In this document: positions 1,676-8,760 of the stretch, in pieces
Numbering within the stretch: the first letter of the stretch is position 1
Layout of the letters: each line of letters opens with the position of its first letter
Source of the DNA: Candidatus Zixiibacteriota bacterium
GTDB taxonomy: Bacteria > Zixibacteria > MSB-5A5 > GN15 > FEB-12
Assembly: GCA_034439475.1 (NCBI GenBank)
Contig: JAWXAN010000048.1
Location: 1-64,000, forward strand
Length of the DNA: 64,000 bases
Direction: 5' to 3'
Program-made: the position numbers and the translations under genes
The notes under the pieces: generated by a model
The model's database searches: none
The model's input: only the letters and a program-made list of their open reading frames with translations
What the model was told of the DNA's origin: nothing

Positions 1676-3130
1676 TTATCCCTGATAATTCACATCGAGC
1701 ATCCGCGCCGCAGTCGATTCATCGAGACGCCGCACGGGTGTCGTAAAGGGCGCCAAGGTGACTTTTTTGGGGTCGGTCTCCGCCTCACGGGCAATCTGTT
1801 CCATAAACCCGGCGAAATCATCAAGCGTCTCTTTGCTCTCGGTTTCGGTCGGCTCAATCATCATCGCTTCGGGAACGATAAGCGGAAAATAGTTAGTCGG
1901 GGCATGGACACCGAAATCCAGCAGACGCTTTGAGATATCTGAAGTTTTCACGCCAAGCTTTTTCTGGCGGTTGCCGGAAATAACAAACTCATGCATGCAA
2001 TGTTTATCATAAGGCAGGTCATAATCTTTGCGCAAAAGCTCTTTGAGATAATTGGCGTTGATGACCGCATTTTCGGATACCTCGCGAAGTCCTTTGCCGC
2101 CGAGAGTTTTAATATAGGCGTAAGCTCGGACCATGTGGGCAAAATTGCCATAAAAAGCATGGAGTCGGCCAATCGAATGAGGGCAGTCGTAGTTAAGGAA
2201 AGAGCGGCCTTTGTTGTCTTTTTCTACAACCGGAGTCGGTAGATATTTTTTCAACCGCTCAGTCACACCAATTGCGCCTGCGCCCGGTCCGCCTCCGCCA
2301 TGCGGGATGGTAAACGTTTTGTGCAGATTGAAATGCATCATATCAAAGCCAATATCAGCCGGACGAAAGATTCCCATATGAGCATTCAAATTCGCCCCGT
2401 CCATGTACATAAGACCGCCCTTGCCATGGACAATTCGGGTGATCTCTTTGATATTAGTTTCAAACAGTCCCAGCGTATTCGGGTTGGTTGTCATCATCCC
2501 CACCACATGCTCATCCATGACTTCGGCCACTGCCTCGGGAGAGATGACTCCGTGCTCATTTGACTTAATTTGAACGACCTCGAAACCTACCGATGTCACT
2601 GTTGCCGGATTTGTGCCATGGGCTGATTCCGGAATGATGACTTTGTATCGCCGTTCGCCTCCATTTTGAAGCTGGTGGGCACGCATTATCAGCAGTCCCG
2701 CAAACTCTCCCTGCGCTCCGGCAACGGGCTGAAGCGAGACTCCTGCAAAGCCCGATATTTCCCCAAGCATTTCAGCCAATTCATACATGATTTCAAGAGA
2801 ACCCTGAGAGGCAAAATCCGGAGTCAAGGGATGAAGCGCACTGAATCCGGGCATCGCTGCCGCGACTTCGTTAAGCTTGGGATTGTATTTCATTGTGCAT
2901 GATCCAAGCGGATAGAAGCCTTTGTCGATATGATGGTTCTTGACCGACAGATTCACAAAATGCCGCATTACCTGCGGTTCTGAGACCTCGGGCAGATTGG
3001 CATCCTCGGCGCGGAGATACTTTTCAGGAATAGAGTCAAGAATCTCGCGTTCGGTTCGCTCACCGGCAGGCAGGGTATACCCCTGCCGGCCGGGCATTGA
3101 ATGATCATAAATCAGTTGCTTGTCGGTCAC
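1676..3130 (-). CDS. gcvPB: Glycine dehydrogenase (decarboxylating) subunit 2
   Basis: This is the P-protein C-terminal-half subunit (484 residues, normal for the split two-subunit enzyme). It binds pyridoxal phosphate and, with GcvPA, decarboxylates glycine and passes the aminomethyl group to lipoyl-GcvH. The PLP lysine is K271 in NLHKTFTIPHGGGG, followed by the glycine-rich loop typical of the family. The gene is last in an operon with accC, gcvH and gcvPA; unusually, three other genes separate it from gcvPA. The start ATG at 3130 gives the usual N-terminus. No gcvT is present in the window. Confidence 0.95.
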   Translation of the reverse strand: MTDKQLIYDHSMPGRQGYTLPAGERTEREILDSIPEKYLRAEDANLPEVSEPQVMRHFVNLSVKNHHIDKGFYPLGSCTMKYNPKLNEVAAAMPGFSALHPLTPDFASQGSLEIMYELAEMLGEISGFAGVSLQPVAGAQGEFAGLLIMRAHQLQNGGERRYKVIIPESAHGTNPATVTSVGFEVVQIKSNEHGVISPEAVAEVMDEHVVGMMTTNPNTLGLFETNIKEITRIVHGKGGLMYMDGANLNAHMGIFRPADIGFDMMHFNLHKTFTIPHGGGGPGAGAIGVTERLKKYLPTPVVEKDNKGRSFLNYDCPHSIGRLHAFYGNFAHMVRAYAYIKTLGGKGLREVSENAVINANYLKELLRKDYDLPYDKHCMHEFVISGNRQKKLGVKTSDISKRLLDFGVHAPTNYFPLIVPEAMMIEPTETESKETLDDFAGFMEQIAREAETDPKKVTLAPFTTPVRRLDESTAARMLDVNYQG

Positions 3131-3174: not shown

Positions 3175-4041
3175 CTACTTTTTCTCTTCGGTCGGTTTCG
3201 CTTTCAATTTGGCAATCTGTTTCTGGGCATAGGCCGTGTCTTCGGAATTCGGATGGTTTTTCATGAACTTTTCGAACGAGGATATCGCCATGGTAGTATC
3301 CCCTTTTTGCCTATATGCAACAGCTGTCATGATGTCGGCCTCTTCAGCGGCTGGGCCTTGTTTGAAGTCGGCGGCAATAGCAGAAAAGAGGGATATCGAT
3401 TTATCATAATCTTTACTGCGCCGATACATATCGGCAATAGCAAGCCGCGACTTGGCCGTCAATGTATCTTTCGGCTCTCCTGCAGATATTACTTTGGTGT
3501 ACCAGCTTTCGGCTTCGACCGATCCGCCGCGGTATTTGTATTTGTCAGCTATCTCAAAATAGAGGGCGCGATCTTCTTTGGTTTTGGCTTGATTGAGCAA
3601 GTCATCAAGCGTCCCGATACCGTTTTTGTAATCAGTCAGGGTTTTCAAGAAAGGTTCTGTCGCCAAATACCCGACAATTCGGTCAATTTCCTTGCCTGTC
3701 TGATCTGTCAGCACAATTGTAGGATACCCAGATACATGATAATGCTTTGCCAAGGCCGAATCAACTTCAGCGTTTACTTTGGTCAGCACCATCTGGGTGT
3801 TAAAGAAATCAATTGCATTTGAATCAACGAACACGACCGTGTCCATAACCTTGCACCAGCCTCACCAATCGGTGAAAAATTTTAGTACAATCGGTTGATT
3901 CTTTGCCGCCGCCTGCTCTATCGCTTCCGGCATGGTCGTGTAAAACGAAGCATGTCCTGGTTCCGATACAAGCGTGGCGCTCGCAGAACTCGCTAAAACA
4001 ACAAGTCCGGCGATAACAACTGCCATTGTCAGTTTGCTCAT
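3175..4041 (-). CDS. Probable selenoprotein: thioredoxin-fold plus TPR protein with in-frame UGA
   Basis: Reading from ATG 4041 gives a signal peptide or membrane anchor (about residues 1-22, MSKLTMAVVIAGLVVLASSA), then a thioredoxin fold with the core FFTDW-TGA-GWCKVMD. The TGA is codon 60 (3862-3864) and sits exactly at the first cysteine of the usual W-C-G-W-C-K redox motif, so the product would be a U-x-x-C protein of 288 residues. Downstream the frame continues without a break: cis-proline segment YHVSGYPTIVL, then about four TPR-like repeats to the Lys-rich C-terminus. The ribosome-binding site AAAGGAG, 6 nt before ATG 4041, fixes the start; the ATG at 3846 just after the redox motif has no such site and would lose the active site. 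A hairpin right after the TGA fits a bacterial SECIS element. The likely role is an exported thiol-disulfide oxidoreductase; its partner is unknown. The alternative is a point mutation or base error turning TGC/TGT into TGA. No sel genes are in the window. Confidence 0.8.
3827..3846 (-). promoter_or_regulatory. Candidate bacterial SECIS hairpin
   Basis: In the mRNA, AUGGACAC pairs with GUGUUCGU (8 bp including two G-U pairs) around a GGUC tetraloop. The loop starts 23 nt after the UGA and has G at its first two positions. Known bacterial SECIS elements lie directly 3' of the UGA with an apical loop about 16-37 nt away and a G in its first two bases; the E. coli fdhF loop also contains GGUC. 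The element lies inside the coding sequence, as bacterial SECIS elements do. Confidence 0.7.
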
Positions 4042-4065
4042 ACGCGCTCTCCTTTTCCACAGAGG

Positions 4066-4449
4066 TTAAACCGTTTTAATATGTACATGTCGATAATTTT
4101 TACCAAGTAATCCCTCAAGCGCGAGGAGGGCTTCTTCCTTAAACTCACGTGGAACCATAAGGACGATTGACTCCTCGCTTTGGTCGATGCCATTGCTGTC
4201 GATACCCTGCGCCTGAATACCGCTCAAATGAATTGATGAAACCATCGATGGTATGTTGACCGAGTGCAGAACTGCCTGGGACCGTTCGGCATTAAGCTTT
4301 CCATTGAGGGCGCAAACGGGGACCCAGCTGTCATCAGGCGATGTCGCCACAGTCGGTGTGAGCGGTTGGGCCACAAGCGTTTTGCCGCAATCAGGACAGA
4401 CCCCGACGGTGGGTTCAAACTCGTATGAACATGACGGACAAAAGGGCAT
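4066..4449 (-). CDS. Zinc-ribbon plus DUF2007-like protein, copy 2
   Basis: A small 127-residue protein. The N-terminus holds a zinc ribbon (CPSC at 4-7, CPDC at about 18-21), followed from about residue 43 by an alpha/beta domain (VPVCALNGKLNAERSQAVL...) that resembles the DUF2007 'putative signal-transducing' family. It is paralogous to the gene immediately upstream: both have the ribbon, the LNAE/LSAD-type segment and a closing EEA.. helix. ATG overlaps the upstream stop by one base (TAATG), with GAGGAG about 9 nt before it, so the pair is translationally coupled. Function is unknown; the location between gcvPA and gcvPB suggests a link to that operon, but this is only context. Confidence 0.75.
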   Translation of the reverse strand: MPFCPSCSYEFEPTVGVCPDCGKTLVAQPLTPTVATSPDDSWVPVCALNGKLNAERSQAVLHSVNIPSMVSSIHLSGIQAQGIDSNGIDQSEESIVLMVPREFKEEALLALEGLLGKNYRHVHIKTV

Positions 4450-4823
4450 TATTGTTTATCTCCTCTATCGGACTTTCGTTTCCAGCGTTCGCCGACAGTC
4501 ATTTCCAAAATGCCCGATGCTTCCTCGGCGAAGGAGCTGGGGACTGATATTTCAAAGAGCGATGAACCTTGGCCATAAAAACTATTCAATGTCAGGCCGA
4601 TCTCTCCAAAATAGCCGGACTTGGATATAACCACGGCGGGTATATTGTACGACATCAATGCTTCGCGGGCAAAATCCGCAGAAAGTTTATCGTCGACTGT
4701 GCCGAGTAACATCCATTCCTGATCTTTCTCGTGTTCCGAATCAACGTCAAGTTCTTCCTTACAGATTGGACAGGTTGTCGCTTCATCGGCCCATTCATTA
4801 TTACATACGGGACAAAACACCAC
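4449..4823 (-). CDS. Zinc-ribbon plus DUF2007-like protein, copy 1
   Basis: A 124-residue paralogue of the following gene. It has the zinc ribbon CPVC...CPIC in the first 25 residues, an acidic linker, then a DUF2007-like fold (MLLGTVDDKLSADFAREAL...). It starts at GTG 4823 (or the next GTG at 4820) inside the 3' end of gcvPA, overlapping it by 23 nt; AAAGGA lies about 10 nt upstream. Function is unknown. The tandem duplication within a glycine-cleavage operon is unusual. Confidence 0.75.
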   Translation of the reverse strand: MVFCPVCNNEWADEATTCPICKEELDVDSEHEKDQEWMLLGTVDDKLSADFAREALMSYNIPAVVISKSGYFGEIGLTLNSFYGQGSSLFEISVPSSFAEEASGILEMTVGERWKRKSDRGDKQ

Positions 4824-6156
4824 TTGAGGTCAATTCCTTTAATCCTGAGACCATCCGGTCAATTTCCGCATCAGTTCGCTTTTCTGTTGTTGCGACAATA
4901 AGACAATTGTCCATTCCGCCGAACCACCTGCCGGCATCGACTCCGGGAAGCACCCCGCGCTCCACCAGAGCAGAGATAATTTCCGCGGCGGGACGGGGCG
5001 TCTCGACTGCAAATTCACGAACAAACGGGGCTTTAAAATACGAACGGTATCCACCCAGCGCAAAAATTCCACGCGCCAACCTCTGCGCTTTTTCTGCCGA
5101 AAGGAGCGCAACTTTTTTGAGACCTGTTTTACCTAAAAGACTCATATACGCTGTAGCCATAGTCGCGCAGAAGGCCTGATTGGTGCAGATATTTGAGGTC
5201 GCCTTATCGCGGCGGATATGCTGTTCTCGTGTTTGGAGAGTGAGGACAAAACCGGGACGGCCATCGACATCTTTTGTGCGGGCCGCGATTCTGCCGGGAA
5301 GATTGCGTATCAGTTCTTTTTTTACAGCAAAAAACCCTACCAGTGGCCCCCCGAATGAAATTGGAATGCCCAATGGCTGACCTTCGCCGACTGCGATATC
5401 CGCGCCATATTCGCCGGGTGTTTTGAGCAATGCCTGAGCAATGGGGTCGACCGTCATGATGAGTTTGCCGCCAACTCCATGGATTATGCGCTCTGCAGTT
5501 TCGATATCTTCGAGCAAGCCAAAGAAGTTTGGCTGGCCAAGCATGACACACGCCGTTTCTTCATTTACAGCATCCTGCAAACGATTGAAATCAGTCAAGC
5601 CCTCTTTCATCGGGATGGTTTCAATCGAGACTTCGCGCGCCGCAAGATAGGTGGCAATAACTTGGCGGTACATCGGGTTGACTGTCTCAGAAAGCACAAT
5701 ATGTTTCCGCTTGGTTGCCGCGCAGGCCAAAATAACGGCTTCGGCGGCAGCGCTGGCGCCATCGTAGAGTGAGGCGTTTGACACATCCATCCCTGTCAGA
5801 CGGCAGATATGGGTTTGGAACTCATAGATTAGCTGTAGTGTCCCCTGCGCGACCTCGGGCTGATAGGGCGTGTACGCCGTCATAAACTCCGGACGCATGA
5901 CGGCCGCAAATTCAGCCGCGGGAATAAAATGGTCATAGATTCCTGCACCAGCGAAGCAGGCGATCTCGGATGAATTTTTCTTACTAATTTGATCAATCTC
6001 GGCCAGCAATTCCATCTCGGAGAGCATAGGAATATCGAGCGGTCGATTCAAGCGGAGGCTGTCGGGAATGGCCCCGATGAGTTCATTGAAATTTTTGACA
6101 CCGATTTTGTCGAGCATTGCTCGGCGATCGTCATCGGTATTCGGAATGAATGACAT
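4801..6156 (-). CDS. gcvPA: Glycine dehydrogenase (decarboxylating) subunit 1
   Basis: A 451-residue protein matching the N-terminal-half subunit of the two-part P-protein. It starts MSFIPNTDDDRRAML and contains the conserved segments YTPYQPEVAQGTLQ, NASLYDGASAAAEA, QPNFFGLLED and the GEGQPLGIPISFGGP loop that completes the active site with GcvPB. Length is normal (about 440-450). It follows gcvH by 64 nt and precedes the zinc-ribbon pair. The subunit lacks the PLP lysine, as expected. Confidence 0.95.
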   Translation of the reverse strand: MSFIPNTDDDRRAMLDKIGVKNFNELIGAIPDSLRLNRPLDIPMLSEMELLAEIDQISKKNSSEIACFAGAGIYDHFIPAAEFAAVMRPEFMTAYTPYQPEVAQGTLQLIYEFQTHICRLTGMDVSNASLYDGASAAAEAVILACAATKRKHIVLSETVNPMYRQVIATYLAAREVSIETIPMKEGLTDFNRLQDAVNEETACVMLGQPNFFGLLEDIETAERIIHGVGGKLIMTVDPIAQALLKTPGEYGADIAVGEGQPLGIPISFGGPLVGFFAVKKELIRNLPGRIAARTKDVDGRPGFVLTLQTREQHIRRDKATSNICTNQAFCATMATAYMSLLGKTGLKKVALLSAEKAQRLARGIFALGGYRSYFKAPFVREFAVETPRPAAEIISALVERGVLPGVDAGRWFGGMDNCLIVATTEKRTDAEIDRMVSGLKELTSSGVLSRM

Positions 6157-6220: not shown

Positions 6221-6601
6221 TTACGATACTATCTTTTTATAACCGTCGGCATTGAGCAATTGTTCTACCTGCGCAAGGTTGCTCACTTCAACTTTAATCA
6301 TCCAGCCCCCCCCGTATGGGTCTCTATTGATAACCATCGGATCAGCGTCGAGAGACTTATTGATTTCGAGAACTTTGCCGCTGACCGGCGAAAAAAGCTC
6401 CGAGACCGCTTTGACGGCTTCGATCGTCCCGAAATTGCTCATCTGCTCGATTTTCTTCCCGACATCCGGCAATTCAACAAAAACTATGTCGCCCAGTTCT
6501 CCCTGGGCATAGTCGGTAATGCCAATGGTCGCAGTCGAGCCATTAATTTTAACCCATTCATGTTCTTTTGTGTATTTCAGATCGGCTGGAATATTCACCA
6601 A
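6221..6601 (-). CDS. gcvH: Glycine cleavage system H protein
   Basis: The 126-residue lipoyl carrier shuttles the methylamine intermediate between the P, T and L proteins. The N-terminal KYTKEHEWVK and the lipoylation site IEAVKAVSEL (K64) are both intact. Length is typical. It lies 12 nt after accC and upstream of gcvPA, so it is co-transcribed with a biotin carboxylase gene, an uncommon pairing. Confidence 0.97.
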   Translation of the reverse strand: MVNIPADLKYTKEHEWVKINGSTATIGITDYAQGELGDIVFVELPDVGKKIEQMSNFGTIEAVKAVSELFSPVSGKVLEINKSLDADPMVINRDPYGGGWMIKVEVSNLAQVEQLLNADGYKKIVS

Positions 6602-8200: not shown

Positions 8201-8523
8201 GTCCGAATATAAAACATAAATTGACTGGTTAACATGTTACCATCTATGACAATCCGTTTTAAAAAGCAGAGTTCATTGATTCATTCCGTACCAACACGTC
8301 GCGAACGAGAAGGCGAGGATTAAATAATGCTCGCATGTCGTCAAACGGCTTAATCCAATAGATTCCTGATACTCTGGCCGTTCTTTGGAACGAAGAATCG
8401 TACATTATTGTGCAAAAGGTGTAGGGCCGCAGATGAATATCTCTTGAGTTTACAGGCCATACTCCCGAGAGACGTTTTTCTTCGGTCGGAAATAGAGCAT
8501 ATATATTGAAAGGAATCAATTTT

Positions 8524-8760
8524 ATGGATGAAAAAAACAAAGGCCAAGGGCGAGGATGGCATGGGGACCCAGCAGGACACGCGGCAGCAGGCCGCAAAGG
8601 TGGCGAGGAAGTCAGTAAGGACCGCCAGCATATGGCTGAAATAGGACGTAAAGGCGGTCAACAATCCGGCGGTAATTTCGCCCATGATCGTGACAAGGCG
8701 AGCGAAGCCGGACACAAAGGCGGAGAAGCCTCGCCCGAGAGCAACGAGAACGAAGAATAG
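8524..8760 (+). CDS. KGG-repeat (YciG/con-10-like) stress-type protein
   Basis: A very hydrophilic 78-residue protein with three glycine-rich repeats centred on AGRKGGEE, IGRKGGQQ and AGHKGGEA, the KGG motif of the small general-stress proteins (KGG domain; E. coli YciG, fungal con-10). The molecular role of the family is not settled; members are induced by stress or stationary phase. The start is ATG 8524, with AAAGGA 9 nt upstream; an upstream TTG at 8506 is in frame but overlaps that site. It stands alone, divergent from accC, with a possible terminator behind it. Confidence 0.85.
   Translation: MDEKNKGQGRGWHGDPAGHAAAGRKGGEEVSKDRQHMAEIGRKGGQQSGGNFAHDRDKASEAGHKGGEASPESNENEE

Follow-up and report, generated by a model that had tools for sequence, protein, structure and literature searches.

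The stretch of DNA analysed here (64,000 nt, referred to throughout as the window) carries on its minus strand a gene at 3175..4041 whose reading frame is interrupted by one in-frame TGA. The question raised by this locus is whether that codon directs the insertion of selenocysteine (Sec), and if so what kind of selenoprotein results. Read through the TGA, the frame from ATG 4041 to the TAG stop at 3177-3175 comprises 288 codons and gives a protein of 288 residues, in which the single TGA is codon 60 (3862..3864, minus strand) within the sequence FFTDW-U-GWCKVMD. A ribosome-binding site, AAGGAG, can be read directly at 4049..4054 (minus strand), with a spacing of 7 nt ahead of the ATG. A sequence-only reading of the window had already proposed an in-frame TGA with open frames on both sides and a strong ribosome-binding site at the upstream ATG, and the read-through translation bears this out. 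Its warning that ordinary gene callers lose the active site also holds, since ORF calling without recoding splits the gene into a piece of 78 aa (3824-4060) and one of 223 aa starting at ATG 3846. Its placement of the TGA at the first position of a redox motif also stands on translation and homologue alignment, but the general form of this motif is corrected here to U-x-x-C (UxxC), of which UGWC is the version found in the window and UKYC, USWC and UPGC are among the variants of relatives.

Homologues of the window protein are spread throughout its phylum. They were matched in 61 of 61 order-level genomes (with only a weak thioredoxin match in G032, G047 and G058) and, at E 1e-25 or better, in 120 of the 132 genomes of the phylum set, and their nearest named records are Candidatus Zixiibacteriota. 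Aligning them for Cys or Sec at codon 60 was a check suggested by the earlier reading, and across 121 homologous loci the codon is TGA in 65, TGC or TGT in 53, Ser in three and nothing else; the in-frame UGA is therefore aligned with the Cys of homologues, TGA or Cys occupies the position in 118 of 121 loci, and Sec is present in about half of the homologues. Rates of substitution in eight close pairs point the same way, as dN is 0.12-0.71 upstream of the UGA and 0.13-0.27 downstream, against a dS of 0.64 to saturated, which indicates protein-level constraint on both sides. Sec60/Cys60, cis-Pro107, R121 and T144 are invariant in 60 aligned rows and C63 is nearly so; this alignment excluded the three Ser loci, evidence that the active residue may disappear and that some lineages can do without redox activity. 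The motif itself appears to degenerate in certain lineages. Among class-level homologues, six loci (L202, L210, L200, L213, L215 and L222) have Ser for the first or second Cys (SPWC, SAYS, CPWS), and one genome (G070; L195/L209) has a copy linked to the glycine cleavage (gcv) genes that is without active-site residues (SKWS) and a second copy, away from gcv, with UxxC (UGAC).

The genome contains what is needed to decode Sec. In the assembly from which the window is drawn (2.66 Mb, 98.7% complete), one tRNA-Sec scores above cut-off (66.6 bits; identified by ARAGORN as SeC, anticodon TCA) on contig C22, where selB (311.7 bits) and selA (519 bits) adjoin each other, and a Sec-type selD (381 bits) lies on contig C4. 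A tRNA scan over the whole window found no tRNA, the tRNA-Sec being on another contig. A genome missing selB and tRNA-Sec would have counted against the sequence-only reading, and the reverse is found, with tRNA-Sec, selA, selB and selD all present. The selD gene (L166/L047) has an in-frame TGA of its own at the catalytic position (CAGUASK), making SelD itself a selenoprotein. In the order-level set, selB is above cut-off in 28 of 31 TGA genomes; G035 has tRNA-Sec and no selB above cut-off, G043 and G044 have sub-threshold selB matches only, and all three assemblies are incomplete. The machinery is kept in most Cys genomes too, so that Cys is usually not a result of the loss of Sec decoding; in one Cys genome (G002, 85% complete) neither selB nor tRNA-Sec was seen. 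A second and probable selenoprotein family was observed in five genomes (L159-L163 in G036, G033, G057, G035 and G040), about 395 aa in length, with a signal peptide, a thioredoxin-like N-terminus, UxxC in the pattern [ED]-DU-[EQ][FY]C..AAR.A (for example FVHEDUEFCQAAARDAE) and a long helical tail.

Downstream of codon 60 there is a bSECIS-type hairpin (3828..3845, minus strand) with a 7 bp stem and a GGUC apical loop (3835-3838), the stem starting 19 nt past the first base of the UGA and the loop lying 23 nt after the UGA. The published bSECIS model describes a loop of 3-9 nt with a G in the first two positions, a stem of at least 4 bp, a distance of 16-37 nt from the UGA and an MFE of at most -7.5 (PMC13188914), and the window falls within these limits, its GGUC loop lying at a distance of 23 nt and its local hairpin having an MFE of -8.0 kcal/mol. 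The hairpin, with consensus T[G/C]GAcAC-GGUC-GUgUU[C/G][A/G] in the window's family, has 7/7 pairs in 31 of 31 TGA genes of that family and is intact in 4 of its 19 Cys genes (Fisher p 2e-9, kinship ignored), several others of which have decayed copies. Covariation was assessed in 30 sequences, in which 100% of cells are paired and pairing does not exceed 48% once the partners are slid; there are 10 double-change cells, against zero for slides of -3 to +1 and no more than two for slides of +2 or +3. One stem pair shows a compensatory swap (G-C in 21 sequences and C-G in nine) and a second varies between C-G and U-A. The G-C/C-G swap involves the third base of codon 66 and that of codon 71, so that residue 71 changes from Phe (TTC) to Leu (TTG), which implies that the RNA fixes the residue. 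Codon choice is constrained in the same region, with a same-codon fraction at codons 66-70 (same-residue comparisons) of 0.91 in Sec genes vs 0.40 elsewhere, and of 0.49 in Cys genes vs 0.41 elsewhere. The 60 nt after the window's UGA fold no better than shuffles (z 0.16), so the case for a SECIS rests on conservation and covariation; the local 25-nt hairpin folds better than shuffles (z -2.8). An Rfam scan of the window gave zero matches, which is uninformative because bacterial SECIS elements are too diverse.

The signal is not of one form across the phylum. The hairpin of family f2 (UCGAUAC-CGUGAC-GUAUCGA) and that of one class-level family (AACGCU-UGGAU-AGCGUU, distance 16) are unlike that of the window's family, which suggests that different lineages have built the signal anew. 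A pooled structure alignment of f1 and f2 was dropped because hairpin register and loop length (4 vs 6 nt) disagree, and f1 was counted alone. No hairpin fitting the published bSECIS model was found in the TGA genes of two kinds of distant lineage, f3 and some class-level families. In f3 (L150, L151 and L147) the region after the UGA is conserved and contains a GAUGGAC...GUUCAUC stem, which is possibly a different SECIS form.

On this sequence evidence the gene at 3175..4041 is very probably a real selenoprotein gene in which UGA codon 60 is read as Sec, and we infer that Sec is incorporated there in the living cell. Some bacteria are known to read UGA through without Sec, and the codon might be read as another residue, either under a reassigned code or by near-cognate read-through as Trp or Cys. 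This is highly improbable, since 12 of the window's 33 ORFs of at least 300 aa end in TGA, from which it follows that the code is not reassigned, since the TGA at codon 60 swaps with Cys and Ser codons only and never with Trp, and since it goes together with a SECIS-type hairpin in genomes that have tRNA-Sec and SelB. That the TGA is a true stop, whether in a pseudogene, by sequencing error or between two separate ORFs, is scarcely credible: standard ORF calling does split the gene, but 65 loci of separate assemblies have TGA at this codon, which refutes a stop in practice, the remaining loci have Cys or Ser there, purifying selection acts on both sides of it, and a conserved SECIS accompanies the complete Sec machinery.

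The residue at codon 60 has a labile history. A tree of 57 scored rows, with motif columns excluded, needs 12 changes, and one built quickly from 121 rows requires 18 between Sec and the rest; with a midpoint root the latter gives 11-13 changes from Sec to Cys and 5-7 from Cys to Sec, root and direction being uncertain. Independently of rooting, six genera (g3, g12, g18, g20, g30 and g39) have both Sec and Cys forms, and in five of these the hairpin persists, intact or partly decayed, in the Cys members (G002, G011/G071, G017, G036/G079/G081-G083 and G049). The gene has evidently switched many times between Sec and Cys, leaving decayed RNA signals behind. SECIS remnants after a Sec-to-Cys change were described earlier in a few families (PMC1794560), and a 2026 review considers bacterial Sec-to-Cys conversions rare and found mainly in FdhA and SelD (PMC13188914), a rarity with which the repeated conversion seen here contrasts.

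The architecture of the protein, which the sequence-only reading had given as a thioredoxin fold with a TPR tail, is upheld by both Pfam and AlphaFold. A predicted signal peptide of about residues 1-22, MSKLTMAVVIAGLVVLASSASA (3976..4041, minus strand), is supported by the sequence, a survey of N-termini and a helix at residues 3-17 in the AlphaFold2 model; it is followed by a thioredoxin domain of about residues 33-137 (3631..3945, minus strand), delimited by Pfam, AlphaFold, Foldseek and invariant columns and containing the UxxC motif and cis-Pro P107, and by a TPR-like helical tail of about residues 145-280 (3202..3609, minus strand), seen with Pfam and AlphaFold. Thioredoxin (PF00085) and Thioredoxin_2 (PF13098) match above cut-off, in addition to TPR/BamD-like repeats, and the AlphaFold2 model, built with 60 family rows (pLDDT 95.1, pTM 0.87), has an N-terminal helix, a thioredoxin fold at 33-137 and then helices up to residue 280. 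Most homologues have a hydrophobic N-terminal segment, and a rough pattern finds a lipobox in 53 of 121. Most relatives outside the phylum are short thioredoxins that lack the TPR tail and come from Bacteroidota and Ignavibacteria, and near-full-length Cys forms occur there in two MAGs only, both distant (26-27%).

The claim that this is not a described selenoprotein family has to be divided. It does not hold for the thioredoxin domain, which belongs to a known UxxC group: a 'thiol:disulfide interchange protein' (PF13098, UxxC) is a predicted selenoprotein in Table 1 of the 2026 catalogue (PMC13188914), and 'Trx-like 2' (cd02953) is an earlier listed kind (PMC2398784). The window protein shares with these a thioredoxin fold of the DsbD gamma/Thioredoxin_2 group with Sec first in UxxC but, going by their descriptions, differs in being exported with a fused TPR, for which none is listed, and in having a gene with a fixed place between gcvPA and gcvPB in one phylum. 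For the fused architecture the claim does hold, as an exported thioredoxin-TPR protein is absent from the text and Table 1 of the catalogue of 119 families (PMC13188914), and none is described for Zixibacteria in the literature searched, which omits most subscription papers. Against NCBIfam the protein stays below the cut-off of every model. The best match by E-value is TsoB (NF045694, rhodanese/DsbD fusion-like), which matches through its C-terminal DsbD-like part only (70.5 bits vs a cut-off of 805); the window protein has no rhodanese domain, and TsoB is catalogued with two Sec in a UxxxxU motif (PMC13188914). UxxC selenoproteins of thioredoxin fold are therefore already known, and the exported thioredoxin-TPR architecture is the new part.

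As to function, a role as a cell-envelope thiol-disulfide reductase or isomerase is moderately probable by analogy. The thioredoxin domain has DsbD gamma as its best Foldseek match (33% identity, TMt 0.72-0.76), and resembles DsbD gamma and DsbH in its periplasmic redox-active motif; unlike DsbD, which has alpha, transmembrane and gamma domains, the window protein has the gamma-like domain only, with a TPR tail in place of the others. SelB, acting on the hairpin 23 nt after the UGA, would deliver Sec-tRNA at codon 60; the selenolate would then attack a client disulfide, Cys63 would resolve the mixed selenenyl-sulfide, and the protein would be recharged by DsbD, of which the genome has one complete copy (704 aa) as a separate gene and which is proposed as electron donor by analogy. 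The TPR helices of the C-terminal tail are a probable docking site for clients or partner proteins; both the redox direction and the clients we infer.

The main functional rival is an envelope counterpart of the chaperedoxin CnoX (YbbN), a holdase and redox protector instead of a general reductase, whose TPR tail would bind unfolding clients while Sec protects their thiols. CnoX likewise joins an N-terminal thioredoxin domain to a C-terminal TPR domain, and structures of YbbN, a known fusion of this type, are the top three Foldseek matches by architecture, but the global TM is only 0.30 (rmsd 22 A to 3qou), with domains placed differently and a different thioredoxin subtype, that of the window protein being closer to DsbD gamma. 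The window protein has UxxC or CxxC, against SxxC in E. coli CnoX. It is moreover exported, whereas CnoX is cytoplasmic and works with GroEL, to which it hands its clients (PMC8129009). Location and fold arrangement rule out plain identity with CnoX, and a chaperedoxin-like role is possible though rather unlikely.

Two further proposals concern the neighbourhood of the gene, which lies in an operon-like run of minus-strand reading frames that overlap or almost touch. The kept order is gcvH (6221..6601; PF01597), gcvPA for the glycine cleavage P-protein alpha subunit (4801..6156; PF02347, synteny), zr2 (4449..4823), zr1 (4066..4449), the selenoprotein gene and gcvPB for the beta subunit (1676..3130; domain match, synteny). 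Between gcvPA and the selenoprotein gene, zr1 (127 aa, with a CxxC...CxxC zinc-ribbon N-terminus) and zr2 (a 124-aa zinc-ribbon protein with a weak DUF2007-like part) are operon partners conserved across the phylum (4066-4823), with sub-threshold Pfam matches only. Elsewhere in the window, 8506-8760 encodes a KGG-repeat stress-induced small protein (PF10685). Every order-level locus checked has gcvPA and/or gcvPB flanking the selenoprotein gene, and where only one flanks, the missing gene falls at a contig end or past a short flank. At class level flanking by gcv holds in nearly all loci, with six elsewhere and two without a downstream gcvPB, and one relative outside the phylum (L098) has a gcvPA-like gene nearby.

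This constancy would favour a protein that directly serves glycine cleavage, for instance by keeping a partner's thiols reduced. Such a functional link is improbable, as the protein has an export signal or lipobox while glycine cleavage is cytoplasmic, six class-level TGA loci sit elsewhere, and the synteny may mirror shared regulation only. More doubtful still is the proposal of a selenium gauge, in which the operon would sense selenium through the UGA. Shortage of selenium would cause termination at codon 60, some 690 nt ahead of gcvPB would stay untranslated, and polarity would lower the P-protein beta subunit, making glycine cleavage track the supply of selenium, a control that lineages changed to Cys would lose; since those lineages keep the same gene order, such a gauge cannot explain the arrangement. 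An envelope reductase or isomerase is the reading we retain.

The locus adds to the known selenoproteins an uncatalogued architecture that is near-universal in a candidate phylum and is split by ordinary gene callers. The sequence-only reading is extended here by the SECIS, the place in the operon, the occurrence throughout the phylum and the turnover between Sec and Cys. The hairpin that dictates Phe or Leu at residue 71 shows clearly how the structure of an RNA can constrain an enzyme beside its active site. Intact, half-decayed and lost hairpins form a natural series, from which the order and pace of SECIS loss may be read in one orthologous gene.
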